20,890 nt of DNA from positions 1 through 20,890 of IMG/VR virus record IMGVR_UViG_3300009151_000494, one strand, 5' to 3'. Source of the DNA: a virus. Every line of letters begins with the position of its first letter. Position 1 is the first letter of the stretch. Positions 1,221 through 20,890 of the stretch are shown one piece after another. Both the position numbers and the translations under genes were made by a program. The notes under the pieces were generated by a model. It was not told the DNA's origin. It searched no databases and worked only from the letters and a program-made list of their open reading frames with translations.

Positions 1221-1838
1221 ATGAAAAAAATCATAAATGCTTTTTCTGTACCTGTTTTGGAAGCCATCATTCCCGAAGCCAGTGTCTTAAACGAATCATT
1301 GAATTTCAAAATACACAACTTGTTTGATACCATCGATGACAAACGATTACTTGGACACTATTGGCACAGCAAGATTTTAACAGACGTGGCATCAGATACC
1401 GGATACAGTTCATTTGATCACGGTAACCTTGTTGATGACGAAGATTTTAATGATTTTTTTGCAACCATTTCTCCTGTAATTACAGATTTTTTTAATCAAT
1501 TAAACTTTGATCAAATTTGGAATTTTAGCAATGCATGGGCCAATGTTTATCCCCGTGGTTCTTTTGTTCCTCATCATAATCACGGCACTGCTCATTGGAG
1601 CGGTAGCTATTATGTAAATGCCGCTGAAAACTGTGGTGATTTGATATTGTTAGATCCCAAAGAATATGCGTTGAGTAATGAACCACTGGGTACCAAATGG
1701 CGTGGTAATGTTTCGTACCCTATTAGTGTGTTGCCTGGGAAGTTAGTGATTTTCCCAGGGTATTTAAAACACGAAACTAAACCCAACCTATCCTCCGAAG
1801 ACAGAATTATTATCAGTTTTAATATCACATGTCAGTAA
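1221..1838 (+). CDS. Putative 2-oxoglutarate/Fe(II)-dependent oxygenase (TIGR02466-like), first of three
   Basis: A 205-residue protein resembling the TIGR02466 / 2OG-FeII_Oxy_5 group of phage and bacterial oxygenases. It has a WANVYPRGSF segment (residues 106-115), then HHNH (His118, His119, His121), then SGSYYV. A second half contains GDLILLDP, GKLVIFPGYLKH (His184) and DRIIISFN (Arg195). The likely iron ligands are His119 and/or His121 plus His184, with Arg195 binding 2-oxoglutarate. These enzymes usually hydroxylate a protein side chain or small molecule. ATG 1221 has no Shine-Dalgarno sequence but is the first start after the AT-rich promoter-like element. The gene overlaps the next by ten bases, which suggests coupled translation. 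Substrate unknown; hydroxylation of the neighbouring virion proteins is a hypothesis. Confidence 0.7.
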   Translation: MKKIINAFSVPVLEAIIPEASVLNESLNFKIHNLFDTIDDKRLLGHYWHSKILTDVASDTGYSSFDHGNLVDDEDFNDFFATISPVITDFFNQLNFDQIWNFSNAWANVYPRGSFVPHHNHGTAHWSGSYYVNAAENCGDLILLDPKEYALSNEPLGTKWRGNVSYPISVLPGKLVIFPGYLKHETKPNLSSEDRIIISFNITCQ

Positions 1839-2422
1839 ACAATATTTTTTTTAATCCAGTTTTTCCACAAGTGTTGGAAACACAATTGCTGTTAGATCCA
1901 GCGGTAAAAGCACGTATGATTGATACAGTATTATCACAAAAAGACACGGCAGATTATCACGGCGGGTATACATTCCGTGTCAAGGATCATTACGGAGATT
2001 TCAAAACTCTTTACAATTTCTTTTTTGACACAGTTGTAAACATATTTGGCAATGTAAAATTATCCCCTATACACAAAACATGGTGTTGGGCCAACGTGTA
2101 CAACAGGGATACGTTTAAAACTAATGCTCACGACCATATCAAAACTAGTTCTATCAATGCCATATATTATTTGAAAATGCCGCAAGATATTAATAGCAAC
2201 GAAGGCGGATTAAACTTGTATACTACTAATTTAGAAATTATACAATTTCAACCTGAGGAAGGCGATTTACTTATCATGCCGAATAACACAGTTCACGAAC
2301 CGTTATTTCACAGCAGTATTGATTATAGAATTGCTATCAATATGGAAATATGCATCGAGCCCGATGTCTTTGATTACTTTACAGAAGGAAAATTATATGC
2401 AAATGCCTCACCAAAATTATGA
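1829..2422 (+). CDS. Putative 2-oxoglutarate/Fe(II)-dependent oxygenase, second of three
   Basis: A 197-residue protein that appears to be a diverged paralog of its upstream neighbour. Both carry W-A-N-V-Y, an Arg three residues or fewer later, an H-x-H pair and a double tyrosine strand. Here these are WANVYNRDTF (residues 87-96), AHDH (His101, Asp102, His103) and AIYYLKMP. The distal half has GDLLIMPNNTVHEP (His156) and DYRIAI (Arg167), as expected for the second iron ligand and the 2-oxoglutarate-binding arginine. The start at 1829 lies inside the upstream gene (ATGTCAGTAA contains both start and stop) with no separate ribosome site, so translation is probably coupled. Family assignment is fairly secure, substrate unknown. 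Confidence 0.65.
   Translation: MSVNNIFFNPVFPQVLETQLLLDPAVKARMIDTVLSQKDTADYHGGYTFRVKDHYGDFKTLYNFFFDTVVNIFGNVKLSPIHKTWCWANVYNRDTFKTNAHDHIKTSSINAIYYLKMPQDINSNEGGLNLYTTNLEIIQFQPEEGDLLIMPNNTVHEPLFHSSIDYRIAINMEICIEPDVFDYFTEGKLYANASPKL
2385..2389 (+). promoter_or_regulatory. Ribosome binding site fixing the start of the third oxygenase
   Basis: AAGGA lies seven bases before ATG 2397, within the last codons of the preceding gene. The frame is open upstream to 2319, but that longer start has no such site and would add 26 residues overlapping the previous gene. A second in-frame ATG at 2403 is less well spaced. Confidence 0.6.
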
Positions 2423-2909
2423 ACAAATTGTGGTAATTTCAAAATCACTATTGGACAAAACGCAGTGCAATGAGTTGATAACTCGTTATGATAACAATCT
2501 ACAGAGCATAGTGCAAAAAACATATAGGGATGTGTTAATAACGGATATTCCCATCTTAGACATTCCACAGTTGCTTGATAGTTTACAATATATTAATCAA
2601 CATCATTTTAAATTAGATTTATATCTACATTGGGAGTGTTTTTTTGCAAGATACGATCAAGGTATGCATTACAATAGTTTACATATAGATTGTATAGCTG
2701 GTGATCATCAACGCAAATTGTCTTTTTCATTGTTGTTGAACGACGATTTTCAAGGAGGAGACTTTGCCACTGTTACAGAATCTAGTGTTGCATGTGATGC
2801 GGGCAAATTATTGGTATTCCCTTCTTTCTTACCGCACAAAATATCTCCTGTAGAGTCTGGGACTAGATATGCAATATTTGGATGGATATATGGTCCTAAC
2901 TTTAAATAA
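2397..2909 (+). CDS. Prolyl-4-hydroxylase-like 2OG/Fe(II) oxygenase, third of three
   Basis: A 170-residue protein with the complete double-stranded beta-helix signature of P4H-type oxygenases (2OG-FeII_Oxy_3-like). LHID gives His96 and Asp98, the HxD iron ligands. It is followed by the hallmark segment LLNDDFQGGDF. AGKLLVFPSFLPH supplies His147, SGTRYAI supplies Arg157 for the 2-oxoglutarate carboxylate, and GWIYGP follows. All expected catalytic residues are present, so it is probably active. The start overlaps the end of the previous gene by 26 bases and is set by AAGGA at 2385. Its stop is only two bases from the stop of the converging SGNH gene. Prolyl, asparaginyl or small-molecule hydroxylation cannot be told apart from the sequence. 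Confidence 0.8.
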   Translation: MQMPHQNYEQIVVISKSLLDKTQCNELITRYDNNLQSIVQKTYRDVLITDIPILDIPQLLDSLQYINQHHFKLDLYLHWECFFARYDQGMHYNSLHIDCIAGDHQRKLSFSLLLNDDFQGGDFATVTESSVACDAGKLLVFPSFLPHKISPVESGTRYAIFGWIYGPNFK

Positions 2910-6393: not shown

Positions 6394-6930
6394 TTATGGA
6401 TTCTTCCAATATATCACCGCCATGCCAGTGCCGGCCATACTGGACAATTGGTCTAATTTGCAGGGTGGGAATGCCAATGCGGCTCCGGACCCGTTACATA
6501 AGTCATAACTTCCGCCCCAGCATACGCACAGCAAATAACATCTGTTTTGGCCAGCACCGCCACCTTTGCCAGCTCGGCTGGCCATCCACATGATGTCAAC
6601 GCCGCCTGATCCACCCAATGTGCCTGCACAATGTGTCACATAGGGAAACAATTGTTCCTGCATTCTATCTGCACAACAGATCCTGTTAGTTGTTCCTAAA
6701 CAGCACAACAAATTCCAATTTATGCCTGGCCCGCATGCAGCACCACCCATGCAGTTTGGTATGTTCATTGAAGTAGGTTCACAACAGAAATAAGCAATTC
6801 CGCCAGTGCCTGCACCTTCGCCGGAGTTGTGCCAGGAAGTCAGTGCCAACCGAGGACCTTGATTCCAATTGCTACATGTGCGATAGCAAGCACCTCGTTC
6901 AAGCCATTTCCTTGACTGCCGCTGCCGCAC
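6394..6930 (-). CDS. Glycine/cysteine-rich adhesin-like protein, 3' part (frameshifted)
   Basis: This frame is open from a GTG at 6930 and closed upstream by a TGA, but it is best read as the C-terminal part of the gene starting at 8021. From NSGEGAGTGG onward it aligns with the C-terminal third of the intact paralog at 8024-9619. Shared blocks are NSGEGAGTGG, CAGTLGGSGGV, AGKGGG, LAFPPC, LDQ and AGTGMA(V/I)IYW/Y. The 90-base overlap with the 5' part lies in a -1 frame. The first 10 or so residues of this frame (MRQRQSRKW) do not resemble the paralog, so the GTG is unlikely to be a true start. An indel or ribosomal frameshift near 6890-6905 would yield a protein of about 542 residues. The C terminus resembles glycine-rich phage fibre tips. 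Confidence 0.6.
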   Translation of the reverse strand: MRQRQSRKWLERGACYRTCSNWNQGPRLALTSWHNSGEGAGTGGIAYFCCEPTSMNIPNCMGGAACGPGINWNLLCCLGTTNRICCADRMQEQLFPYVTHCAGTLGGSGGVDIMWMASRAGKGGGAGQNRCYLLCVCWGGSYDLCNGSGAALAFPPCKLDQLSSMAGTGMAVIYWKNP

Positions 6931-8021
6931 ATGCTGTGAATATCATGCCATTGATAACGTTTGGGTTGTGGACCATGCTCATGAAAATGTCCTATTGCGC
7001 CCATGCAGCCTCGATGATACCAAATAAATCTTGTGTCACGACCTTCATCATTGTCATAGCCGCCCCATCCGCCAGCACCGTAGTGAAACTGTCCAGACAC
7101 GCACATGCCTCTAAAACCTACGACTCTAGCAACAGGTACGTCGCATCTGATAAATTTTGTGCCGCCGCCGCCATCAGTGCCGCTCATGTAATAAGACTTC
7201 ATTCCAGCTGGGTAGCCATTGCTACATCTTTCATTTGTACATATGCAAGTACACTGTGAACTCATAGCACCTTTTTTGCAGATGTATCCAATGCCGCCGC
7301 CGCCGCCCGCTGCCGGGCCGTATCCAGAACCAGTAACCTGATCGTCGTAGTTGGCTCCGCCGCCAGCACCGCCGGTACTGTATATCCATGATCCTGCTGA
7401 TCCGCCGCCTGGTGCTTTGCCGCTGGTGGCACCTGGACTGTTGTCAGTGGCTGAGTAAACGCCATAGCCACTATACACTATACAATATCCGCAACATTGA
7501 GTAAAGGTGCAATTATTGTATATGCCTGGAGCATTGCCTCCAGCATAGGCGCAGCCAGGTGCACCGCCAGTTGAATTCCAATCGCCACCAGATGCTGCTC
7601 CGGGATTGCAACAGGAAGCACCGCCTGCTGTGAGTGTTCTAGTAGCACCGCCTGAGCACACATAAGAAATGGTTGTGTCTTGCTGCTGACGACCCACTAC
7701 CACAGTGACCGTGCAACCTGCAACAACTGTGTCAGTTTTTTCCACATAACCACCGCCTGCACCGGCATAATTCGTAGTGCTGCTGCCTACGTAGCTTGCC
7801 TTGCCACCGCCGCCTACTGCAATGGTACGCAAACATGTGACTCCAGCGGGCACCGTGAACGTGTAACTGCCTGGTGTGTCAAGTATCACTCGGTTTTGCC
7901 AACATGAATTACCATCATAAGCATATTTTTGACCAGAAACTTGATAACATGTTGAGTTAACAATAGTTGTAGTAGCAACATTATTGGCTTGTGTTGACCC
8001 TGTACTTATATAACGTCCCAT
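6840..8021 (-). CDS. Glycine/cysteine-rich adhesin-like protein, 5' part (frameshifted)
   Basis: Codes 393 residues from ATG 8021, which is preceded by AGGGA in the last codons of the upstream gene. The longer frame to 8093 overlaps that gene and is not used. The N terminus MGRYISTGST matches MGRFVQIVYN of the paralog. Residues 50-73 (PGSYTFTVPAGVTCLRTIAV, then GGGG) are the entry of a Gly_rich_2-type domain. A glycine-rich body follows with GGDWNSTGG and CCGYC, also present in the paralog. After GNGL (about 6900) the paralog-like sequence continues in the -1 frame (see 6394-6930), while this frame ends at 6840 after about 20 unrelated residues. Cysteine is very frequent. Probable role: virion surface, receptor binding, perhaps through polyglycine helices as in gp38-type adhesins; that comparison is inference. 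Confidence 0.65.
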   Translation of the reverse strand: MGRYISTGSTQANNVATTTIVNSTCYQVSGQKYAYDGNSCWQNRVILDTPGSYTFTVPAGVTCLRTIAVGGGGKASYVGSSTTNYAGAGGGYVEKTDTVVAGCTVTVVVGRQQQDTTISYVCSGGATRTLTAGGASCCNPGAASGGDWNSTGGAPGCAYAGGNAPGIYNNCTFTQCCGYCIVYSGYGVYSATDNSPGATSGKAPGGGSAGSWIYSTGGAGGGANYDDQVTGSGYGPAAGGGGGIGYICKKGAMSSQCTCICTNERCSNGYPAGMKSYYMSGTDGGGGTKFIRCDVPVARVVGFRGMCVSGQFHYGAGGWGGYDNDEGRDTRFIWYHRGCMGAIGHFHEHGPQPKRYQWHDIHSMCGSGSQGNGLNEVLAIAHVAIGIKVLGWH

Positions 8022-8023
8022 TC

Positions 8024-9619
8024 TTATGATTCCCTGTAATATATAATTGCCATGCCAGTCCCTGCATTGCTGAGCATTTGATCCAGCAAACAAGGAGGGA
8101 ATGCTAATTGTGTCACAGTATCACCATTGCAGGTGTTGTATGCACCACCGTGACATATGCACAAAATTTGATTCTTGGCTTGGCCGCCGCCTCCGCCTTT
8201 GCCAGCTTTACTGGTATAACTACAAATGGCCACACCTCCTGATCCACCTAATGTGCCTGCACAGGTGATGAACTGTGGAAATAATCCGTCTGGCATGAGC
8301 CATGCTTGATCACATGCTCCGCAAATCCCTAATTGACAAAGTTTGAGCCAATTGACATGAGCCCAGGGGTCTAATGTGTCGCCAATACCAAGATCGTACA
8401 ATGCTTCACTTCCACATTTGTACAAGGAAAATCCGCCAGTGCCCGCACCTTCTCCGGAATTTCTTGGACGAGGAGTCACTATGGAATTGTAAGGATAACA
8501 ACTGGTGCAGGCCATTAGTCCTGTGCCCGGTGAGCCCGTGCCGCAGATGTTTTGTATGTCCCATTGTTCACAATTCAACACACACATACGCATAGGAGCC
8601 GCACATGCACATCTTGGTTTACTAACTTGGCCGCCACATCTGATACCAAACGGCCACATGCAACTGCCTTCCCAACCCCATTCCATTTCCCAACCATAAG
8701 TAGCATTGTTGTCAGGACCGCCAGGGCCGCCATCGCCCGATTTCCAATAGCCTTTAAGACATTCCTGCACAGTGCTGCGGCATGAGTTATTGCAGCGGGC
8801 TGAACTGCCGCCACCGCCTTGATTACTGGTCGGCCAATCATAACAATATTTTGTGCCTTCGCAACAAAACGAGGCCAAACAGATGCACGAGCAGCAAGGA
8901 TAGTGCCAAACTGGTATATGACACACAGTATCTCCAATGCCAGCTCCACCGCCGGTAGTTGCGGCATGTAGATAATTGCACACACAACTGGAACAGCCGC
9001 CTGAGAGATTTTTTGGAGATCCTGCTGAAGCACCGCCTGCCGCTCCCCAGTCACAGGAAGCGCAAGTTCCGGCCGGATTACATATGTAAGCTATGCAGTA
9101 GCCACAGCAAGCAGTGAAACATGTGTAGTAACATTGGTTGGTGCTGCCGGTGGCACTGGTATGCCAGCCAGTGACTCCGCCACTGCTGTTCCAATCTCCG
9201 CCTGTGGCAACACCTGCAACACATCCAGCTGCTCCACCTGCTGTGTGAACAGCCACGCTGTTGCAAGCCAGTGTGGTGTCTTGTTCTTGACGACCTACCA
9301 CCAGTGTGAATGAAGTTGTGCCGGGTGTTACTGCATGGCATTTTTCACTGTAAGCACCGCCCGAACCTGCTGTTGAGCAACATCCTGAACTGCCGCCAGC
9401 AAAACATTTGGGTTTGCCTCCTCCACCAACTAGCACAGTTCTAACACACACAGCATTACTTGGAGCAGTCCATGTATACGAGCCTGGGCGATCGTATACC
9501 ACTTTGTATTGCCAACACTGCTTGCCGTCGTAGTATACTTTTGCTCCAGTTACAACTGGTGCTGATTTCTCAGCAACATTTATAGTGTTGTTATATACAA
9601 TTTGTACAAAACGTCCCAT
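8024..9619 (-). CDS. Glycine/cysteine-rich adhesin-like virion protein, intact copy
   Basis: A 531-residue protein. Residues 45-68 (PGSYTWTAPSNAVCVRTVLV, then GGGG) form the start of a Gly_rich_2-type domain common in tail-fibre proteins, followed by long glycine-rich stretches (GGAYSEK, GGDWNSSGG, GGGAGIGD, GGGGSS, GDGGPGGPD). The terminus NAGTGMAIIYYRES is a typical closing strand of such proteins. By my count about 49 of 531 residues are cysteine, some in pairs or clusters (ACCGYC, HYPCCSCIC), which is rare in phage structural proteins. There is no signal peptide. Two bases separate its stop from the ATG of the paralog downstream; AGGGA precedes its own ATG. It is probably exposed on the tail fibre and involved in host binding. 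The function of the cysteines (metal or cofactor binding, buried thiols or disulfides) is unknown. Confidence 0.65.
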   Translation of the reverse strand: MGRFVQIVYNNTINVAEKSAPVVTGAKVYYDGKQCWQYKVVYDRPGSYTWTAPSNAVCVRTVLVGGGGKPKCFAGGSSGCCSTAGSGGAYSEKCHAVTPGTTSFTLVVGRQEQDTTLACNSVAVHTAGGAAGCVAGVATGGDWNSSGGVTGWHTSATGSTNQCYYTCFTACCGYCIAYICNPAGTCASCDWGAAGGASAGSPKNLSGGCSSCVCNYLHAATTGGGAGIGDTVCHIPVWHYPCCSCICLASFCCEGTKYCYDWPTSNQGGGGSSARCNNSCRSTVQECLKGYWKSGDGGPGGPDNNATYGWEMEWGWEGSCMWPFGIRCGGQVSKPRCACAAPMRMCVLNCEQWDIQNICGTGSPGTGLMACTSCYPYNSIVTPRPRNSGEGAGTGGFSLYKCGSEALYDLGIGDTLDPWAHVNWLKLCQLGICGACDQAWLMPDGLFPQFITCAGTLGGSGGVAICSYTSKAGKGGGGGQAKNQILCICHGGAYNTCNGDTVTQLAFPPCLLDQMLSNAGTGMAIIYYRES

Positions 9620-9973: not shown

Positions 9974-12900
9974 TTATCTTAGTAAGAAGTAGTTTAATGC
10001 TAAGGGACTACCGTCTATACCCTGTGTAAAGTTAGCTTTGTTCTTTATATTTATCTGAGTTCCAGCCGTATTGCTGATGTTGCTACCAGTAATTTGGATA
10101 GTTCCTGCCACCAGCGTATTTACATTAACTGTGCTGGAGCCGCCGCCAATTTGGCTAGAAATATAAGCTCTAATAGCTTTCTGTGTTGGCACAATTGTAT
10201 CGCTGTTGGCACTGAATGTTGCATCAGTACTAAATTGGCTAATACTGGTGTTTGAGCTACCCAGTGTAACGCTGCCTAATTGCAGTGTTTGCAATCCACT
10301 CAAGTTAAATGCATTGGCATTCAATGTGGCAATACCAGTACTCTGTTGCACAGTGAACAGGTCACCCACATTAAAGTTACCGTCTTGGTCAGTACTGGTG
10401 TAGAACACACGACCACCACCACCTTCAACTGTTTCGTTTGTCTGGTCTGACGCTTGGCTTGGTGTGTTTGGATAATTGGTTGTGGCAATTGTTCCGGTAC
10501 CAATACTCAAGAAGTCATGTCCAGTCAATCGAGTTTGACTGTACAATATTCTCATGGTAATTGCCACGCCGTGTACTGGTGCAAGTGCAATGGTCATGTT
10601 AGGACTAATTTGTAGTGTGGCACTGTAGTTTCCTGGAGATCCAGTTTGACTACTGATTGTAACTAATTTGTAGTAAGAACTGTTGCCTGCAAATTGTACA
10701 TTACTGCCCAATGTAGGAATAGCAGTCATGCCACTCACATTCATGTACTGACTATTTTGATAAATGTCAGCATAACCTGTACCACTAATTGTGGTTGTTG
10801 AACTGACATATCCAGTACCACGATTAGTAAATGTTGGATTGCCCAGTGCACCAATACCAGTTCTCACGGTGTAAGTGGCAGCTGATGTGGCATTTGGGTC
10901 ACCCAGTGTAATTGTTGGAGGAGTAGTGTATCCAGAACCTGGTTCGTAAATTCTGAAACTACTAATCTGGCCACTGGCAACAACTGCACGGGCTTCTGCT
11001 CGTGTAAAGTTGGGAATACTCAATGCACTGGTGCTGCCACTTGCAATCACTGCCCAAGTAGGAGCTGCACTGGTGATAGTGACGCTGCCAGTTGTGGTAG
11101 CATGGCTGGTATTCACTGTCCAACTACTGCTTGAAGCAAATTGCGTTCCAGTCACGTTAGCGGTAATTGTTGTTCCTGCTATTACACCAATGCCGTTTAA
11201 CACCGCACCTATAATAATACCACTACCACTTGGTGTGCTGGTCACAGTCAATGTTGTGCCGCTGATTGTACCAGTAAAGCTAGTGCTGGTATTGCCAAAT
11301 GTTAAAGAATTCCAAGATGCATTGCTCAATGTGCGTGGAGTCCAGTTGATACCATCCGGGCTACTTGCACCAGCACCAGCACCAGTTACACTGGTCCATG
11401 CACCGCCTACATTACTTGTAATTGTGGTAATCGGGCTTAGTGTTGAACTTGTACTAACTTGTATCTGGTTGTTAGTTTGATTAATGCTGGCAATATAATA
11501 TGTTGTACCACTAGTTAATCCACCAAATGTTGCATTATAAGTTGCAGTCAACGAACCAGTTGCAGTAGTTAACGTTTGATCCCTACCGCCAAATGTGGTC
11601 GCAATTGCTAATTCTGTGCCGCTTGGAACTGCTGTTGCATAATAAGTAGAACCAACAGTATATGTTAATCCTGTAGGAGTACCAGTTGTAGTTGTTACAC
11701 CTGTACCAGCATTTAACGAAGCACCTAATACAAATGATGTTGTACCATTAGTACTGATAATATAATAAGTAGTTGGAGTAGCGTAACCAGAAATAGTTCC
11801 AGTACCGCCCAGTGTGCCACTGATTGTCACAGTCATACCAACTGCTAGCGTGGCTGCTGTACAAGTGAACTGTCCTGCTGGGCCAGCAATCACCACACTG
11901 GCCAATGTTTGACTTGTTGGTAATATTGTTCCAAAGCTAGTTCCAGCAAAACTTACTGGACTACCGGCAGCAATGCCAGTTGTGCTTGACACTGTGACCA
12001 AGTTTCTAGTAGCAATCACAGGAGTTCCTGTAGCAACAGACTGTGTAGTACTCAAACTATAACTTGTACCAGCAACTGCAATAGTGCCAGTTGATCCGAT
12101 TGGTGTGCTGATTGTGTATGAGCCGGCACCGCCTGCACCTGTTCCAAAAGCTGTGATCCAACCAGTCAAATTGTTCAATGCAATGCTTGAACTTTGATAG
12201 CTTGTGTATCCCAATGTGTATGTTAATCCTGTTGGAGTACCAGCTGTGGTTGTGATAGGTGTTGAATTCTGACCACCATTCCATGGAGCAATTGTGCTTA
12301 ATTGAAATGTGGTTGAACCGTTTGTGCGTGTGATGTAATATGTATTACCAGTAGTATAGCCAGTAATTGAACCAGTTCCGCCCAGTGATCCAGTAATAGT
12401 CACACTCATACCAACTGTGAGGTTAGTGGCCGTGCAAGCAAAGTCGCCGCTGATGTCACCGATACTCACGCCAGAAACTGTGCCTGCATTAACTGTGTAT
12501 GCTTGTCCAGCAAAACTTGTACCACCAGCTGCGGTTGTTGGAGTTGATAGATAGTATGTGCCAGCACCACCAGTACCCGTTCCGTTTGCAGTGACATATG
12601 TGCCTGCACTTACCACTGTGCCGCCTGCACCAGTTGCACTTGTGGCACTGTCAAATGTTGCAATACTTGTTGAACAAGCTGTTACTTTGAATGTGCCATT
12701 GAAGTTGCTGTTGGCATTACCAGTGATTGTGATTGCTTGACCTGCTACAAAAGGAGCAGCTGTCTGAACACTGCTGAATGTTACTGTGGCACTTAAACCG
12801 TTGCCAGTGATGCTGCTGATTGACAAACTCTGTGCAACAATACCGCTTGTCCAACTCACAACAGTACCTGGAACAATTGTTCCAACACCAACACCAGACA

Positions 12901-15900
12901 CTGTCATGGTAATCGGTGTAGCTGTAATTGTTGTGCTTGATACTGTTTGGCTAAGATTTACATACCATGTGCTTGGATTACTTGTGGCTGTACCTGTGAT
13001 TGGTGCAGACACATAGGTTCCGCCAGCAACACCTGTACCACTCAGTAGATAACCTACAACAATGCCTGCTCCGCTTGGAACACTGGTAACAGACATAATT
13101 CCGCCTAAGCCTGCATCTGTTGTACTTGTTGGAGCAATACTAGCAGTAAACGTCACTGCGGTACCAGCTGCAATACCTGCAAACCAAGAGCTTGAATTAC
13201 TTGCACTGATAGTTGGAACAGCACCATTGATGTTGGGGCCGCTGATGTACTGTCCTGCTGCTGGAGTTCCAACATTTATGCCTTGTAAACTTAAATTACC
13301 GCCAACGATCTGTGCATAATTGTTGGTAACTACGGTGCCACTGATTGCTTGTCCAATTGACACAGTACCAGTAACTGTTCCGCCAACTGTTAGTGTAGTT
13401 CCGCTAGCACTTGAAGCAGTACTTGTAAAACTGTTAGTACCAGTAATACTCAATGGGCCAGCAAATACTGAACCGCCGCTTGTATAACTAGCACTAGCAG
13501 TACCAGCAGCAGTTAGTTGATAACCTGAGCTAGATAGACCAACACCAGTAATAGTGTAAGAACCGTTATAAGCAATTGGTATAATACCTTGTACGTTTAC
13601 TGTGGCACCTGTCAAATATGGAACTGGTGGGTAGTAAACAAATGTCACAGCCGCACTAGGTGTTCCTGCTGTTGTTACACTGGCTGCACCAGTAGTGTAG
13701 TTAATAGTACTTGTTGCAGCAGTACCTGTTGCAAATGTCAATGCTGTGCCGCCGGGTGTTAAGCCTAGTGTTACACTTGTACTTGCAACAACACTTAATA
13801 CATAGTAAATTGTGTTAGTGACAATACCAACGTTGGCTAAGTTAGCACCAGTAAAGTAAATTGGCATACCAACTGCCAATGGTGTTGTAGTAGCAAATGC
13901 AAGCGTAGTTGTAGCATTACCTGTTAATGTCTGGGCTGCAATAGTAGTTGGAGTACCAATTCTAAATCTAGTTGCACCGTCAGTATTCAAGATAAAATAG
14001 TAGTTGCCAGATGAGTAGCTAGTAATAGAACCTGCGGCAAATGTACCAGATATTTGAATTAATCTATCTGTAGAGATAGGATATTGCGAACTATTAACAG
14101 TGATCCATCCTGCTGTATCCTGAATAATTGCACCGCTTAGATTAACTGCTGGTGGTGCATAGGTAACTGTTACTACAGAACCTGTACCAGAAGCTGTGGT
14201 AACTGGCATGTTATTTGCACCTTGTATTGCACCAGCATTCACACCAGATACAACCATTCCAGTTGCAACTGTGCCTTGGCTAACTGTGCCTGGAGTCAAC
14301 ACACCAGATGCAACACCTAACACGCTGTTGCTTAATTTAGCAACTGAAGTTGTTGTTGCAGTGGCAGCTGTTGTACCACTGTTGGTTGTTGGAACCCAAG
14401 TTGAGCTTGTTGACATACCAGCTGTGCTACTCACTGTAATCTGATTACTGCCAGTGTAGGCTGCTGAAACCGTTGGTGTCAAATATGCTGAGGTTGCAAG
14501 GAACGAACCTTGGCCGTAGGCAACATTTTTCCAAGCATAACTGAATGGTAGTACTGTGTTTGGAGTTGTCCAAGTAATGCCATCTGTTGAGTATGCTGTT
14601 GCTGTTCCGCCCTGTGCCACTGCAACAAATCTGCCGTTGCCCCATGCAATACTGGTCCAGTATGCAGTTTGTGGCAATGTGCCAGCTGTCCATGCTGCAC
14701 CGTCTGTTGAGTATGCAGTTGTTGCACTTAATCCAGTACCGCCTGTGATTGCAACAAATCGGCCTGGACCTGTGCCATAAGCAATAGCTACATAATTGGC
14801 ACTGACTACAGCACCGCCATTACTCCAACTTGAGCCGTTGGCACTGTAAGCTGTTACTGTGCCGTTGCCAATTGCAACAAAACGGCTGTTACCGTATGCA
14901 ACGCTAGTCCATGTACCAGATTGCAATCCAGTCATTGAGTTCCAGCTTGTGCCGTTGGTGCTGTAATATGCAACTGTGGTTGCTGTTGAGCCAGCAACTG
15001 TGACAAAATATGTTGTTGCACTAATTGCACCACTTGCAACACCAACATACGCACTGGCAGAACTCAATCCAGTCATTGCTGTCCAGTTTGCACCATCAAC
15101 ACTGTATGCACTGTTGCCGCCTGCTGTGGAAACAGCCACAAAACGACCGTTAGCATATGTTGAACTTGACCAAGTTGTGCTTGCTGGCATTGTGCGACTT
15201 GTAGTGGCAAAACTAGGAGCAGTAAATGTTACTCTTGGTTCAATGCTATACGTAGTTGTGCTGTCCAGTGTTGCACTGATGGCTGTTCCAACAACCACAT
15301 GATCATAACCCGCTGCATTTACAATCATTGTGCTGGCAGTCACATCTGTTAAGCCAGAGCTAATTACAGCACCACCTGATGTTGCACTAACTGCAAACTG
15401 TGTTGCACTTGTAATAGCCTGCACATAATAAACTGTGCCAGTTGCGTTAAATCCGCCAATTGCAGTGCCTGTGAACACAATTGGTTGGTTAACATACAAT
15501 GTTAATGTGCTAGGCACAGTGATCAATGCACCAGTTGCAGTAACTGCACTGGCTGTTAGTGCTGTGAAACTTTCTTTAGCAATGGTTGCTTGCTTGCCGC
15601 CTGAAGTGTAATAAGCAATGTATCCAAATTGCCCAACACCTAATCCGGATGTAATTAATAAACGCATACCGAGATAAGCTGCACTGACTGCGGTATCCGA
15701 CCCAGCAATAATAATGCTTGTGGTTGTGCCGCTTTGTGCAGTGTTCGTTGCTGCTACATAGGCCGAACCTGTGGTCAACATTCTGTTTTCAAACACTGCA
15801 TTGTCACGAATTTCATCTCCAACTGCGGCAGCATTGATGCCGTTTGCACTGTTAAAGGTAAACGATGTGCCTGAGTTAGGATATGCATTACCAGCGTTGC

Positions 15901-18499
15901 TGTATTCTAATCTATAGACTACAGCACCGCTAGTAAATGTATTACCAACTTGTGCTTGTAACGCACGATTGTTGACAGTGGCAGTAATAGGAGTCTCGGA
16001 GCTGTTCACTCCTTCTGATACACTGCCAAATTTACCATAACTGTTGTTGCCGTTGGTGGCACGAATTTTGCCGCCATTTTCTGCTAGATAACCAATGTGT
16101 GCATAGTAAGTGAATACAGAAACTAGTTCCGAACGGCCTTGGTTGGTAATCCATGCACCAATTCCGTTGTCAATAACTTGTGTGAAGTCGTTGGCTACAA
16201 TAGATTGATTGCCGCCTGCGTGTAATGCACCGTCCACTTTTAGGCCAGTACATCCGTATCCGAATGTAGTGACGTTTTGTACATAAGGACTACGGCGTGA
16301 AATCCATACACTGGCATCGTCTACTCCTGTTCCAGGATCCAAACTCACATATGCTCCAGCTGTGGGACGCTGTGTGCCATAACTGTTTGCAGCACCCAAT
16401 GTGCCAATCAATCCCTGTAGAGTACAGTTACGTAGGCCAGAACCGTTTCTCATGTAGAACATGTTGCTGGTTGTGTATCCGCCTGTTGGCTGAATCACTG
16501 TTGAACGCAATTCGTCACCCACAATAGCACAGTTTTCAGGAATACTGATTGGTAATATTTCAGAATAAACACCAGCCTTAACATAAATTGTGCTGGTATA
16601 ACCAGTGGTTGGTAACGGAATACCCGCTGTGCTCACTGCGGTTAGTGCATTGATAACAATATCAAACAATGCACCTGCCGCTGTGGTTGCTCCAGCTTCA
16701 GATGTGTAAGCCCCATTAATTACTTGATTAACTGCTGGACTAAAGCTGGTTAGGGTTTGATAGTTGGTACCTGGAGCAGTATTGGTTAATGCATTGGTAA
16801 CAATATTGATTTTTAGTCTTTGTAACAATGCAATAATGTAAGGCATTGCTGATGTAGTAGCTGCGTTAACAAATGTAGTAGGAGTGGCAAAATACGCTTT
16901 TGTTGCACCCACAGTGTTGGTGTTGCTTCCGTTACGTAAATCTTGTGCGATGGCATCTAAAATAATTCTTGAATCACGCAATGTTTTTGTGCCGTCATAC
17001 ACTGAACTTGGACTGAATGGTGCAATGCTATTTGTTTTGGCATATACACCGTACTGATACATTTCGCGAACAGCCCAGTTGACGTTCTGTCCAAACAAAT
17101 ATACAGCATTGGGAAACAATGTTCCTGAGGCCACTTGTGAGCAAGCATAAGCAATGCTTGCCCATGGTTTGTCAAGTGTTTTGCCTTGATCAGTAGCTGT
17201 GGTATCAGTACCGCCCACAGCAACATAGTACACATTGTTGATGTTGCCAAATGTATTCCAGTATAAATTTGTGCCTTGTATAGTTAACACCTGTCCGTCT
17301 GTGCCAATAGGCAATCTTGCTGGACCTGCTCCACTGTAATACAGTGTGTCGCCTTGGGTTGTTAGCACTGCTGTTTCTGATCCAGCAGCCAACAAGTTCC
17401 AATATACACCAGTTAAATCAACTGTGGGTTTGTTTGTTGCAGTGGCAGCAGTGTGTGCCGATACGCAAACATATGTGTTTACACCATCCTTGATTGAGTC
17501 GCCCAGTTTGTATGCAGTGCCGTTTGTCCATGCACCTAACCATTTGTAACCAGGGTTCAATAATTCCCAGTATGTGCCGTTCGGTGGTTCGTTGTTGGTG
17601 TGATCTAGTTTTGATAGATATGTGTAACCATTTAATCTTATAACATCGCCTACTTTGTAGGCTGTTGCTCCAGACCAGTTGCCCACAAAGTTAAATCCTG
17701 TGCTCAACACAGTCCAATATAATGTTGCTGTGCTAGGAGTTTGTCCTGTGTGATTCTGTAGGGCTACATAACTATAGCCACCGTATGTGACCACGTCACC
17801 CTGTTGGTAGGCGGTTGCACCACTCCAGGTACTCTCAAATTGTAAACCTTCTACAAATATAGCCCATTTGCCTTGATCTGCTTCCAAAGTTGATTGACTT
17901 GTGTGGTACGTTGTGCAAATCCATAAATCAGCACCATACTTGACCACATCGTTGAGTTTGTAACGTGTGGTGGCTGTCCAGCCTGTTTTGTAATCAAAAC
18001 TTCTGTTGACCAAATCCCATGATGCAGTGTCACCTTCTAATCCAGTTGCAGTGGATTGACTTGTGTGTGCTGCATTACAAATATAAACGGCCGCTCCATA
18101 CTTGACAACATCTCCAACCTTGTATGCTGTGGTTGCTGCCCAAGATCCAATCCAATTAAATGCACTGGCAAACAATGTCCAGTTGGCTTGGTTTGTTTCT
18201 AATGTTGTGCTGCTGGTGTGGCCAGTGTTACAAATATAAACTCTGCCGCCATACTGCACAAGGTCATTGACATTGTAGTATGTGGGTGTAGTCCACGAGC
18301 CTTTCCACACTTGCCCGTCAGAAGTAATGTTCCACTTTGATGCTAAATCGGTGTAAAAATCTGCCGAGCTTGTATGCCCTGTGGTACAAATATATACTTT
18401 ACCACTAACTCTAACTACGTCATCTTTTACGTATGCGGTAGTGCCTGCCCAGATATTTTTCCAGACAAATCTAATTCTACCTAATTTAAACTCTGCCAT
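9974..18499 (-). CDS. Giant modular tail-fibre / virion structural protein (2841 residues)
   Basis: It starts MAEFKLGRIRFVWKNIW, as in T4-like cyanophage structural proteins I remember. Residues 11-370 hold seven carbohydrate-binding-type repeats. A linker follows (TTQGDTLYYSGAGPARLPIG) that is common in tail fibres. About 424-975 form a pectate-lyase-like right-handed beta-helix (VYYVAVGGTD; YVKAGVYSEILPISIPENCA), with a helical insertion at about 452-633. About 1095-1335 are propeller-type repeats (YSTDGITW), interrupted by about 1,040 uncharged beta-rich residues and resumed at 2378-2497. From 2497 (FTRAEAR) the protein again matches the neighbouring fibre gene to its C terminus (ARLTGHDFL, TDQDGNF, VPTQKAI). 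GGAG precedes ATG 18499, and a late promoter lies at 18526. Probably a homotrimeric fibre with glycan-binding parts. No chaperone or cleavage domain was recognised. Confidence 0.85.
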   Translation of the reverse strand: MAEFKLGRIRFVWKNIWAGTTAYVKDDVVRVSGKVYICTTGHTSSADFYTDLASKWNITSDGQVWKGSWTTPTYYNVNDLVQYGGRVYICNTGHTSSTTLETNQANWTLFASAFNWIGSWAATTAYKVGDVVKYGAAVYICNAAHTSQSTATGLEGDTASWDLVNRSFDYKTGWTATTRYKLNDVVKYGADLWICTTYHTSQSTLEADQGKWAIFVEGLQFESTWSGATAYQQGDVVTYGGYSYVALQNHTGQTPSTATLYWTVLSTGFNFVGNWSGATAYKVGDVIRLNGYTYLSKLDHTNNEPPNGTYWELLNPGYKWLGAWTNGTAYKLGDSIKDGVNTYVCVSAHTAATATNKPTVDLTGVYWNLLAAGSETAVLTTQGDTLYYSGAGPARLPIGTDGQVLTIQGTNLYWNTFGNINNVYYVAVGGTDTTATDQGKTLDKPWASIAYACSQVASGTLFPNAVYLFGQNVNWAVREMYQYGVYAKTNSIAPFSPSSVYDGTKTLRDSRIILDAIAQDLRNGSNTNTVGATKAYFATPTTFVNAATTSAMPYIIALLQRLKINIVTNALTNTAPGTNYQTLTSFSPAVNQVINGAYTSEAGATTAAGALFDIVINALTAVSTAGIPLPTTGYTSTIYVKAGVYSEILPISIPENCAIVGDELRSTVIQPTGGYTTSNMFYMRNGSGLRNCTLQGLIGTLGAANSYGTQRPTAGAYVSLDPGTGVDDASVWISRRSPYVQNVTTFGYGCTGLKVDGALHAGGNQSIVANDFTQVIDNGIGAWITNQGRSELVSVFTYYAHIGYLAENGGKIRATNGNNSYGKFGSVSEGVNSSETPITATVNNRALQAQVGNTFTSGAVVYRLEYSNAGNAYPNSGTSFTFNSANGINAAAVGDEIRDNAVFENRMLTTGSAYVAATNTAQSGTTTSIIIAGSDTAVSAAYLGMRLLITSGLGVGQFGYIAYYTSGGKQATIAKESFTALTASAVTATGALITVPSTLTLYVNQPIVFTGTAIGGFNATGTVYYVQAITSATQFAVSATSGGAVISSGLTDVTASTMIVNAAGYDHVVVGTAISATLDSTTTYSIEPRVTFTAPSFATTSRTMPASTTWSSSTYANGRFVAVSTAGGNSAYSVDGANWTAMTGLSSASAYVGVASGAISATTYFVTVAGSTATTVAYYSTNGTSWNSMTGLQSGTWTSVAYGNSRFVAIGNGTVTAYSANGSSWSNGGAVVSANYVAIAYGTGPGRFVAITGGTGLSATTAYSTDGAAWTAGTLPQTAYWTSIAWGNGRFVAVAQGGTATAYSTDGITWTTPNTVLPFSYAWKNVAYGQGSFLATSAYLTPTVSAAYTGSNQITVSSTAGMSTSSTWVPTTNSGTTAATATTTSVAKLSNSVLGVASGVLTPGTVSQGTVATGMVVSGVNAGAIQGANNMPVTTASGTGSVVTVTYAPPAVNLSGAIIQDTAGWITVNSSQYPISTDRLIQISGTFAAGSITSYSSGNYYFILNTDGATRFRIGTPTTIAAQTLTGNATTTLAFATTTPLAVGMPIYFTGANLANVGIVTNTIYYVLSVVASTSVTLGLTPGGTALTFATGTAATSTINYTTGAASVTTAGTPSAAVTFVYYPPVPYLTGATVNVQGIIPIAYNGSYTITGVGLSSSGYQLTAAGTASASYTSGGSVFAGPLSITGTNSFTSTASSASGTTLTVGGTVTGTVSIGQAISGTVVTNNYAQIVGGNLSLQGINVGTPAAGQYISGPNINGAVPTISASNSSSWFAGIAAGTAVTFTASIAPTSTTDAGLGGIMSVTSVPSGAGIVVGYLLSGTGVAGGTYVSAPITGTATSNPSTWYVNLSQTVSSTTITATPITMTVSGVGVGTIVPGTVVSWTSGIVAQSLSISSITGNGLSATVTFSSVQTAAPFVAGQAITITGNANSNFNGTFKVTACSTSIATFDSATSATGAGGTVVSAGTYVTANGTGTGGAGTYYLSTPTTAAGGTSFAGQAYTVNAGTVSGVSIGDISGDFACTATNLTVGMSVTITGSLGGTGSITGYTTGNTYYITRTNGSTTFQLSTIAPWNGGQNSTPITTTAGTPTGLTYTLGYTSYQSSSIALNNLTGWITAFGTGAGGAGSYTISTPIGSTGTIAVAGTSYSLSTTQSVATGTPVIATRNLVTVSSTTGIAAGSPVSFAGTSFGTILPTSQTLASVVIAGPAGQFTCTAATLAVGMTVTISGTLGGTGTISGYATPTTYYIISTNGTTSFVLGASLNAGTGVTTTTGTPTGLTYTVGSTYYATAVPSGTELAIATTFGGRDQTLTTATGSLTATYNATFGGLTSGTTYYIASINQTNNQIQVSTSSTLSPITTITSNVGGAWTSVTGAGAGASSPDGINWTPRTLSNASWNSLTFGNTSTSFTGTISGTTLTVTSTPSGSGIIIGAVLNGIGVIAGTTITANVTGTQFASSSSWTVNTSHATTTGSVTITSAAPTWAVIASGSTSALSIPNFTRAEARAVVASGQISSFRIYEPGSGYTTPPTITLGDPNATSAATYTVRTGIGALGNPTFTNRGTGYVSSTTTISGTGYADIYQNSQYMNVSGMTAIPTLGSNVQFAGNSSYYKLVTISSQTGSPGNYSATLQISPNMTIALAPVHGVAITMRILYSQTRLTGHDFLSIGTGTIATTNYPNTPSQASDQTNETVEGGGGRVFYTSTDQDGNFNVGDLFTVQQSTGIATLNANAFNLSGLQTLQLGSVTLGSSNTSISQFSTDATFSANSDTIVPTQKAIRAYISSQIGGGSSTVNVNTLVAGTIQITGSNISNTAGTQINIKNKANFTQGIDGSPLALNYFLLR
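9979..10001 (-). repeat. 3' end of the giant fibre gene, copied at 1193-1213
   Basis: These bases encode the last residues of the fibre (LNYFLL region). Fifteen of them, plus six more across a two-base gap, recur in the noncoding gap upstream of the oxygenase operon, on the opposite strand. Confidence 0.45.
10048..10055 (-). promoter_or_regulatory. Possible internal late promoter at the 3' end of the giant fibre gene
   Basis: The minus strand reads GATAAATA, one base from the late octamer and identical to the element at 18526. It lies inside the fibre coding sequence about 90 bases before ATG 9958 and could add transcripts of the small protein and adhesins. It falls within codons for Ile-Asn-Ile-Lys, so chance is a real alternative. 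Confidence 0.25.
11055..11370 (-). repeat. Last propeller-type blades, the final one split by a beta-module
   Basis: SSPDGINWTPRTLSNASWNS (about 11305-11365) continues the blade pattern left off near 14495. The next blade starts ASWNSLTFGN, is interrupted by about 75 residues (LTVTSTPSGSGIIIG to TSAAP), and resumes as TWAVIASGSTSALS. A similar 75-residue module occurs near 12920-13100 (SVTSVPSGAGIVVG). Confidence 0.45.
11727..11878 (-). repeat. Fibre 'TYYI' beta-module, copy A of a close pair
   Basis: Encodes GQFTCTAATLAVGMTVTISG to FVLG. It closely resembles the copy at 12296-12449 in both protein and DNA (for example CCGCCCAGTG and TCATACCAACTG are shared on the plus strand), indicating duplication. 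Boundaries are approximate. Confidence 0.6.
12296..12449 (-). repeat. Fibre 'TYYI' beta-module, copy B of a close pair
   Basis: Encodes GDFACTATNLTVGMSVTITG to FQLS. More diverged members with the same order (VG turn, beta strand with TG, YY-V/I, T-x-F) are found near 11420-11540, 13725-13900, 13960-14085 and 15330-15540. Confidence 0.6.
14490..15190 (-). repeat. Propeller-type repeats in the giant fibre
   Basis: Roughly 40-residue units with the pattern W-x-S-x-A-Y-G-N-G-R-F-V-A-V, a short turn, A-Y-S-T-D-G-x-x-W-T. Five complete units and the first half of a sixth are here. The sixth's second half and a seventh lie at 11055-11370. This pattern resembles BNR/kelch-like blades; seven units would suit a closed seven-bladed propeller. 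Confidence 0.55.
17390..18470 (-). repeat. Seven tandem carbohydrate-binding-type repeats at the fibre N terminus
   Basis: Each unit of about 47-55 residues follows the pattern W-x-x-x-T-x-Y-x-x-G-D-V-V-x-Y-x-G-x-x-Y-x-C-x-x-x-H-T-S, ending in W. This is the pattern of CBM5/12 (chitin-binding type 3) modules. Copies 1-4 keep Y-I-C or W-I-C and HTS; copies 5-7 are more diverged (HTGQ, HTNN, HTAA). The array probably contacts polysaccharide or packs on the fibre shaft; binding is not shown. Confidence 0.75.
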
Positions 18500-18543: not shown

Positions 18544-20890
18544 TTACTGTGCTCCGCCTGCTACGAACATAGCAGTTGCCAACATGTTACCATCAATTCC
18601 GCCTGTGAAATTAACTTTGCTTTTGAAGTTAATTGCAATGCCCAGTGTGTTTGTTATTTGATTTGATGTTGCTATCCTAATTTGGCCAGCTGTTGCTTCG
18701 TTAACATTCAAGTTAGCACCACCGCCACCTATTCTACTTGCAATATATGATTTAATTGCTTTTTGTGTTACCAAAACATTGTCGCTGTTTGCAGGCATTG
18801 TTGTGTCTGTGCTAATTTCAGTAATTGTTGCACTGGTTCCACCCAATACAATACCACCCAGTGTCAATTGAGACAATCCGTTTAACTGAAAGAAGCTGGC
18901 GTTCAGAGTTGCTGTGCCGCTGGCTTGTTCAACTTTGAACAAACTGCCAACTCTAAAGTTACCGTCTTGGTCCGTGGCTGTGTAGAATGTTCGGCCGCCG
19001 CCGCTTTCCACTGCAAGATTTTGTGGTTTTATTGCAGTAACATCAATACTAGGGTAGTTTGTAACCGCAGCATTGCCTGTACCAACTTCTAAGAAGTCGT
19101 GTCCTGTGAGTCTGGCTTGGCTGTATCCAGATCTTATTAAAACCTGAGAGCCTTGTGTGGGAGCTTGGGCCAAGGGCACTGTGGGATATACTTGTATTCT
19201 AGCAGAATAAGGTCCACTTCCAGTGATATTAGTTGCAGCAACTAATCTATAATTAGCTGTACTACTGAAAAAATTGACGTTTGCACCTGGAGTTGGAATT
19301 GAGGACAACCCGCTCACATATACATAATCCCCATATTGGAAACTGTCAGCATATCCCGTTCCTGATAAAACTGTAGCTGATGCTGTTATATATCCAGTGC
19401 CTCTATTACTAAAAGTAGGAGTGGCCAGTACGCCATTTCCTATTCTAACTTGATACTCTACACCGGAGCCATTTGGATCTCCAATAACTAACGTTGGGGC
19501 TGATGAATATCCAGAGCCCGGTTCAAACACTCTAAATTTACCAATCCGTCCTGAAGCAATAACTACTCTTGCTTGGGCCCTAGTTCCAGAGCCTGGAGCA
19601 CTGAATGTGATTCTAGGTTCAATACTGTACTGACTGGTTGTATCAAGATCCACTACAGCATTAACACTTTGCATAGCATCCCATCCAGCTGTTCCGTTGC
19701 TTTCTTTCAATATAGTGGCTAGTTTGGTTGATGAGTTGTATGCACTGATATATCCGTATTGTCCTGCTCCGCGGCCTGAAATAATAACAATACGCATTCC
19801 TAGATAGTTGCTTTGTGCATTTGAATCGCTGGCTGCAAGATAAATTGTTCCTCCAGAGCCACTGCCAGCTTGTGCATTGTTAACTACATTTAAATAGCCA
19901 CCGCCACCGTAGCTGCCAGATGAAGTTAAATCTGTTAGTCTAACTTCGTAAACACCGCCGTTTCTAACATTTGCAGAACTGGTAGCAGCACCTAGTCCTG
20001 AACCTGTGAATGAAAATGCAGTAGAACTATTATAACTTACACCAGCATTGTCGTATTCAAAGCCTAATATTTGTGTACCGTCTGTGAATACAAATCCAAT
20101 TGTTGCATGCGAGCCACCGTTGTTAATTGTTCCTGAAATAGGAGTCTCCGCTGCAAGAGTGCCTTCTGATACTGTACCAAAATCTCCATAACTGTTGTTG
20201 CCGTTTGTGGCACGAATCTTGCCGCCATCTTCTGCCAAATATCCAATATGACAATAGTACGTAAAAACTGAAACCAATTCTGATCTGCCGCCGTTAGTAA
20301 TCCACATACCAATACCATCACTGATTACTTGTGTGAAGTCGTTGGCCACAATAGATTTATTTCCTGTGGCATGTAGTGAACCGTCCACCTTCATACCTAT
20401 GCAGCCAGTTCCTATAGTAGTAACGTTTTGTACATAGGGACTTTTGGTCAATATGGGACTGGTTGGGTTTAATGAAACAAATGCTCCGGCTGTGGGTCTT
20501 TTTGTACCGTAACTGTTGACTATTCCCAATGTGCCGCTTAATCCTTGCAGAGTCATGTTCTTTAAAGTGGATCCGTTGCTCATACGGAACATATCTAATA
20601 GTGTTGAACTTGAATTGGGTTGTACCACAGTACTGCGTAGTTCGTCTCCAACCACTGCAACATTTTCCGGAATAACAATTGGTAGCAGTTCAGAGTATAC
20701 TCCTGATTTGATGTACAGCGTTGCAGTTCCTGTGATATTATCACAAGCATATCTGATGGTTCTATAAGGCTTGTCTTGTGTTGTGCCGTATCCTGCTGCG
20801 TCTGTTCCTGATGTTGCAACATAGTAAACTTTTGTTCTAACACCCCATAGTCCCCAAACAGGAACATTACCGGATACTCTCAATACTTGA
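18544..20890 (-). CDS. Tail-fibre / virion structural protein, 5' end outside window
   Basis: The frame is open to the right edge. The TTG at 20883 is not a start, because the codons before it (Gln-Val) continue the fibre linker seen in the giant paralog (GQVL...). About 780 residues are visible. They contain VYYVATSGTDAAGYGTTQDK, then a right-handed beta-helix of pectate-lyase type (YIKSGVYSELLPIVIPENVA; GGKIRATNGNNSYG), a region with YSIEPRITFSAP and RVFEPGSGYSSAP, and a conserved C-terminal part (ARLTGHDFLEVGTG, TDQDGNFRVGSLF, VLVTQKAIKSYIASRIGGGG). All of these align with the 2841-residue protein, which differs by large insertions. It ends at 18544, 44 bases before the ATG of that paralog, so the two are a tandem duplication. 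The compact form is useful as the reference for locating the insertions. Confidence 0.8.
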   Translation of the reverse strand, partial: QVLRVSGNVPVWGLWGVRTKVYYVATSGTDAAGYGTTQDKPYRTIRYACDNITGTATLYIKSGVYSELLPIVIPENVAVVGDELRSTVVQPNSSSTLLDMFRMSNGSTLKNMTLQGLSGTLGIVNSYGTKRPTAGAFVSLNPTSPILTKSPYVQNVTTIGTGCIGMKVDGSLHATGNKSIVANDFTQVISDGIGMWITNGGRSELVSVFTYYCHIGYLAEDGGKIRATNGNNSYGDFGTVSEGTLAAETPISGTINNGGSHATIGFVFTDGTQILGFEYDNAGVSYNSSTAFSFTGSGLGAATSSANVRNGGVYEVRLTDLTSSGSYGGGGYLNVVNNAQAGSGSGGTIYLAASDSNAQSNYLGMRIVIISGRGAGQYGYISAYNSSTKLATILKESNGTAGWDAMQSVNAVVDLDTTSQYSIEPRITFSAPGSGTRAQARVVIASGRIGKFRVFEPGSGYSSAPTLVIGDPNGSGVEYQVRIGNGVLATPTFSNRGTGYITASATVLSGTGYADSFQYGDYVYVSGLSSIPTPGANVNFFSSTANYRLVAATNITGSGPYSARIQVYPTVPLAQAPTQGSQVLIRSGYSQARLTGHDFLEVGTGNAAVTNYPSIDVTAIKPQNLAVESGGGRTFYTATDQDGNFRVGSLFKVEQASGTATLNASFFQLNGLSQLTLGGIVLGGTSATITEISTDTTMPANSDNVLVTQKAIKSYIASRIGGGGANLNVNEATAGQIRIATSNQITNTLGIAINFKSKVNFTGGIDGNMLATAMFVAGGAQ

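Follow-up and report, generated by a model that had tools for sequence, protein, structure and literature searches.

How is one to read a fibre gene in which a run of propeller-like repeats halts in the middle of a unit and resumes some thousand residues further on? The question is posed by a viral contig of 20,890 bases, the whole of which was analysed and is called the window here. The explanation that we favour, and that we hold to be fairly probable as a whole, is a seven-bladed, velcro-closed propeller in a loop of a T4-like fibre backbone, opened by an array of modules that would serve as an exchangeable adhesion arm. Its parts differ in strength. The architecture, a ring in a backbone loop that is opened at b6-c6 (~1,037 residues) and at a7-b7 (~74) and carries nested array modules, is very likely; the function, in which a rigid mount would hold an adhesion arm, is a reasoned guess with about even chances. 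The features on which the argument turns are as follows.

9974..18499 (-): whole fibre ORF (P0001), 2841 aa; ORF list and profile matches
15212..15250 (-): backbone on the N side of the propeller site, YSIEPRVTFTAPS, residues 1084-1096; uninterrupted in paralogue P0002
15185..15211 (-): putative closing strand at the N-terminus (blade 7, strand d), FATTSRTMP, residues 1097-1105; strand 18-28 of the L093 model
14549..15184 (-): blades 1-5, residues 1106-1317; unit HMM
14489..14548 (-): blade 6, strands a and b, PFSYAWKNVAYGQGSFLATS, residues 1318-1337; unit HMM and alignment
11378..14488 (-): large insert in the b6-c6 loop, residues 1338-2374, ~1,037 aa of beta-rich modules; alignment and pairwise mapping
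11321..11377 (-): blade 6, strands c and d, around GAGASSPDGINWTPRTLSN, residues 2375-2393; alignment and distal profile
11288..11320 (-): blade 7, strand a, ASWNSLTFGNT, residues 2394-2404; alignment and distal profile
11066..11287 (-): small insert in the a7-b7 loop, residues 2405-2478, 74 aa; alignment
11006..11065 (-): blade 7, strands b and c, APTWAVIASGSTSALSIPNF, residues 2479-2498; alignment and distal profile
10928..11005 (-): backbone on the C side of the propeller site, TRAEARAVVASGQISSFRIYEPGSGY, residues 2499-2524; motif position and comparison with P0002

The fibre ORF contains no internal stop and runs from CBM5/12-like repeats through a beta-helix and a backbone module with the split propeller to a conserved C-terminus. 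CBM_5_12 of Pfam was matched seven times in its N-terminal part (E 6.8e-29), and five stretches of the fibre body match the PHROGs profile of the tail fibre family phrog_9851 (E 8.3e-185); that one protein combines such repeats with tail-fibre families counts for the favoured explanation. The top isolate relatives of the ORF are Kyanoviridae fibres, from T4-like phages of Synechococcus, Prochlorococcus and Pelagibacter, and the fibre belongs to an uncultured T4-like phage, probably a marine one. No propeller was recognised in the protein by Pfam or NCBIfam, and sequence-based domain annotation of this kind overlooks such propellers.

The neighbourhood of the fibre deserves brief mention. Directly downstream of the fibre genes (6394-9619, minus strand) lie two tandem Cys-/Gly-rich proteins, the first without a profile match in Pfam and PHROGs and the second without one in PHROGs, which by position and composition presumably recall the Gly-rich tip adhesins of T-even phages. 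The second of these genes (6394-8093, minus strand) is broken over two frames in the window and is one open frame of ~550 aa in three relatives from other metagenomes (L001, L002 and L005); sequencing error, a pseudogene or a programmed shift may each account for the break. Next to the fibre cluster, three adjoining 2OG-Fe(II) oxygenase-like genes occupy 1221-2909 (plus strand), and similar genes adjoin the fibre of Pelagibacter phage Mosig.

A first-pass annotation of this DNA had proposed seven propeller units with blades six and seven split by ~1,040 and ~75 residues, and alignment gives 1,037 and 74 aa. The motifs it had named were found where it had placed them: TWSSS at residue 1109, GQGSFLATS at 1329-1337 (14515-14489), SSPDG at 2379 (11365), ASWNSL at 2394 (11320) and TWAVIASG at 2481 (11059). 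With a unit HMM of 40 positions built from 20 blades, we obtained five full matches (23.8-60.8 bits) at residues 1105-1313, then a half unit at 1320-1337 that stops at model position 20 and, after a gap of 1034 aa, model positions 20-40 at residues 2372-2391. Seven consecutive four-stranded units are thus present by unit HMM and alignment, five of them whole and the sixth and seventh split. An Asp-box-like motif, S-x-[DN]-G-x-x-W, occurs five times in residues 1086-1340 and once at 2380, six times in all, whereas shuffles of the 255-aa stretch 1086-1340 contained it 0.0135 times on average and once at most. The strict Asp-box or BNR motif, S-x-D-x-G-x-T/S-W between strands c and d, is absent from the window, which therefore falls outside that class, and in 62 family propellers the strict form was counted 41 times and the short form 309 times. 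BNR profiles of Pfam matched neither the window protein nor its relatives; DUF6242 matched nine of 35 relatives at E<=0.01 (best 4.9e-6) and not the window protein.

Taken alone, the second half of the sixth unit scores weakly against the unit HMM (5.8 bits). Moreover, an AF2 model of the split form (residues 1233-2432 of L005, 1200 aa with blades 4-7 and inserts, 15-row alignment) had a pLDDT of 41.8 and a pTM of 0.29, too low to count for or against closure. Both results would accommodate a different reading, in which the five and a half proximal units make up a propeller of their own, open or smaller, and the SSPDG and ASWNS pieces are remnants or belong to another domain. We regard this as very unlikely. 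From 48 uninterrupted relatives, with the window's own clade excluded, we made a profile that starts at strand c of blade 6 and reaches the backbone. It matched the window at residues 2378-2407 (20.9 bits, model 2-32) and at 2460-2524 (34.5 bits, model 10-78), so that strands c6, d6, a7, b7, c7 and the backbone follow in order and register; none of 200 shuffled insert sequences appeared among the matches listed. Since a profile made without the clade finds both distal pieces, both breaks are real and their order is right. The distal pieces are also 93-95% identical to those of L005, and the backbone anchors directly adjoin them. The split propeller is thereby confirmed at the level of sequence, as one homologous ring with two break points.

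Protein-guided scans of viral contigs yielded nine close loci and a further 80, from a total of at least 567, and many of these relatives carry intact blades 6 and 7 between the same anchors, Y-x-I-E-P-R and E-P-G-S-G-Y. Uninterrupted relatives are 42-48% identical to the window across the first five units. Aligned with them, the window breaks at ~1338-2374 and ~2405-2478, the large insert standing where they have a b6-c6 loop of ~11 residues and the small one lying in the a-b loop of blade 7. In this work hmmalign was discarded, as it put the inserts at the sequence ends; gap-tolerant pairwise mapping does find inserts, at the price of inflated identity and scattered short gaps, and only large clean inserts were counted.

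The same split architecture recurs in L001, L002-L004 and L005, which come from other metagenomes, are 63-88% identical to the window over the whole protein and hold the split propeller within one open frame. The locus might instead be two genes joined by chimeric assembly or a sequencing artefact, and the broken glycine-rich gene nearby indicates that the record is not necessarily error-free. However, three independent relatives share the architecture, which rules out an assembly artefact, and synonymous change well exceeds replacement change in nearly all regions compared; we consider a chimera extremely improbable.

Loop insertion is not confined to this clade. Of the single propellers sampled, about three quarters carry 80-120 inserted residues in their first blade and some have an insert in blade 2, the ORFs of L007, L042 and L068 hold 177-208 residues between middle blades, and many relatives carry inserts of 80-210 aa at other loops of the ring. 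The window clade is the extreme case of loop insertion in this propeller family. In nine loci (L022, L025, L026, L033, L039, L055, L065, L069 and L070), one fibre ORF contains two seven-unit rings in tandem. A tblastn search of isolate phages returned five weak matches to the window propeller and none to either insert or to the propeller of L007, a PDB sequence search gave a single, weak match below E 0.001 (9vyg), and a genome scan found distant propellers in MAGs of many phyla.

The first-pass annotation had also expected a closed seven-bladed ring with both inserts projecting from one blade edge. Closure is supported for an uninterrupted relative, L093 (residues 488-850, 35-row alignment), whose AF2 model reached a pLDDT of 88.8 and a pTM of 0.87; for the form with inserts, it is drawn from homology. 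The model contains seven a-b-c strand sets after one leading strand, SATSKTLP, which we infer to be the closing fourth strand of blade 7, with FATTSRTMP as its counterpart in the window. In Foldseek it matched virginiamycin B lyase, which is seven-bladed (TMt 0.84), and Ycf48 (TMt 0.83-0.84 and 2.9-3.3 A over the two), together with many viral propellers. Both breaks, as had been suggested, map to loops of the ring by alignment and pairwise mapping. A shared edge is not supported. By the strand order of L093, the b6-c6 and a7-b7 loops would lie on opposite faces, because b-c and a-b loops of an antiparallel blade open on opposite sides. Since the chain ends that join the backbone would be on the a-b/c-d face, the large insert is expected to emerge on the ring's opposite face and the small insert on the side where the backbone lies. 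After each insert the chain would return to complete blades 6 and 7, the distal GAGASSPDGINWTPR pairing with the GSFLATS strand in blade 6.

Two further levels of nesting emerged that the earlier annotation had not described: the propeller lies within a loop of the backbone, and inside the large insert one module lies within another.

19507..19629 (-): empty propeller site in the adjacent paralogue P0002, YSIEPRITFSAP-GSGT-RAQARVVIASGRIGKFRVFEPGSGY; the same in L001, L002 and L005
12920..13129 (-): module within the large insert that resembles the blade-7 insert, residues 1791-1860; local score 153, with shuffles at 78
11918..12013 (-): first half of a short module in the large insert, residues 2163-2194; model 2-34, 22.9 bits
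11645..11914 (-): FCCH-like module inside the short module, residues ~2196-2285; largely absent from L005
11564..11656 (-): second half of the short module, residues ~2282-2312; profile matches

In the adjacent paralogue P0002, as in its counterparts of L001, L002 and L005, the chain continues without a break across the propeller site as SAP-GSGT-RAQAR. P0002 served as the propeller-free reference, the isolate phages examined being without the backbone motif. Judged by this comparison, the propeller is an insert in a loop of the fibre backbone, a loop that is empty in the paralogue. The backbone also holds, at 15356-15604 (minus strand, residues 966-1048), a short module resembling parts of the large insert, and by eye the matching stretch of P0002 appears shorter.

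Within the large insert, the short module is whole in L005 (2159-2222, 51 bits) and split in the window, L001 and L002 by a module of ~90 residues, which amounts, on sequence comparison, to one case of presence and absence of a module within a module. FCCH-like is our own label for this module, and no library profile backs it; L002 has one more such module elsewhere within its large insert. A larger scheme, in which the whole large insert is a further short module split by everything between its halves, is suggestive only: the candidate halves at 1350-1363 and 2327-2358 scored 9.0 and 12.7 bits, and shuffles reached maxima of 8.1 and 13.9. The insert modules are small beta units rich in Thr, Ser, Ala and Gly, and those similar to the blade-7 insert recur in numerous other viral contigs. 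An FCCH-like module of the window's large insert has a 66%-identical relative at residues ~422-508 of an 817-aa ORF (L153), which by eye we take to be a contractile tail sheath protein; if so, such modules would decorate unrelated virion proteins.

The large insert diverges far faster than the ring around it when the window is compared with L005. It is 64% identical with 96 residues unaligned, as against 84-95% for most other regions and 88% and 93-95% for the propeller pieces, and identity falls near residue 1350 and recovers near 2350, close to the insert borders. Third-codon-position identity drops from ~58-76% outside to 27-54% over most of the insert, with a local recovery at residues 1901-1950. 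Exchange or replacement of parts of the cassette is the simpler reading, because silent identity would not fall so far through fast point selection alone. The event is not universal, since the comparison of the window with L001 lacks such a drop. In nearly all regions compared, synonymous change far exceeds replacement change. With the insert changing so much faster than the ring, the latter resembles a fixed mount that takes exchangeable parts.

What the array does is a matter of weighing two readings. Pfam, isolate-phage and further profile searches found no similarity of the large insert to a known receptor-binding domain. The inserts might be passive decoration in the manner of Ig-like domains on other virion proteins, offering weak, unspecific contact with sugars of the cell surface or plain spacing and no choice of receptor; we count this as a serious rival, if an unlikely one. 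The spread of small Thr/Ser/Ala/Gly-rich beta units across many viral contigs fits it, and the module relative in the sheath-like protein suggests general surface decoration rather than specific receptor contact. Against it stands the cassette as the fastest-diverging part of the protein, as host-driven change predicts; relaxed constraint predicts this equally, and the point is not decisive. We favour the adhesion arm, in which the ring would act as a rigid, conserved mount and the array as an arm for adhesion or receptor contact, evolving and being swapped as a cassette. More tentatively, propeller loops may be standing acceptor sites in general, a conserved ring bearing, in individual blade loops, exchangeable arms as long as ~1,100 residues, which grow module-in-module and recombine whole at the loop borders; we rate this below even chances.

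The first-pass annotation knew of no described fibre with this nested arrangement. In the accessible literature, which leaves most subscription journals outside its scope, this holds: we found no fibre propeller opened by an array of such size, nor one with modules nested inside it. Its elements, however, are familiar. Propellers in phage host recognition are known from phi11 Gp45, PhiKZ gp131C and PRD1 P2 (PMC4901313), endosialidase tailspikes combine a propeller with an extra beta-barrel (PMC12632334), and the mosaic domain make-up of phage fibres has been amply documented (PMC10684548). The array size and the nesting inside a blade would be new, no paper describing them having been found.

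Among known systems, the C-terminal domain of PhiKZ gp131 (PDB 4GBF; PMC4901313) is likewise a seven-bladed propeller, located at the baseplate periphery and proposed as a receptor-binding domain; unlike that of the window it is C-terminal, and no interruption of it is mentioned. It matched in neither our sequence searches nor the top Foldseek list. The trimeric host-recognition protein Gp45 of Staphylococcus phage phi11 (PMC4901313) shares the propeller platform and an N-terminal closing strand, but has five blades and flanking domains in series, with no module array inside a blade. Kyanoviridae fibres of phrog_9851 (S-CAM1 and S-CAM3, with a related one in Pelagibacter phage Mosig) are homologous to the window in their N-terminal repeats, beta-helix and C-terminus; those of the isolates examined are 1,090-1,245 aa long and are without the backbone motif and the propeller. 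The K1F endosialidase has six blades, with a barrel within the propeller region. The K1F tailspike (PMC12632334) resembles the window in being a propeller protein, with a beta-barrel and a beta-helix and a separate glycan site for each, but it is catalytic, ends in a C-terminal chaperone domain and has an accessory domain far below 1,037 aa. In P0001, Pfam gave no match to the endosialidase-type S74 intramolecular chaperone, a point on which the window fibre departs from this class.

A formal parallel comes from animals. In integrins, a whole domain, alpha I, sits in a loop of a seven-bladed propeller and binds ligand, as a single insert of ~200 aa. A domain inserted in the alpha subunit is described in PMC12422189. 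It belongs to an animal receptor and is not known to be nested. If propeller loops are indeed acceptor sites, they would offer a distinct route to adhesin diversity that leaves the holding fold untouched, and if the cassette reading is true, receptor-binding parts of uncultured T4-like phages should be sought in propeller loops besides C-termini. Phage fibres are usually pictured as serial domains with a variable tip. Here, in contrast, the fastest-changing part lies in mid-chain, inside one blade of what would be a closed ring, and is itself nested.
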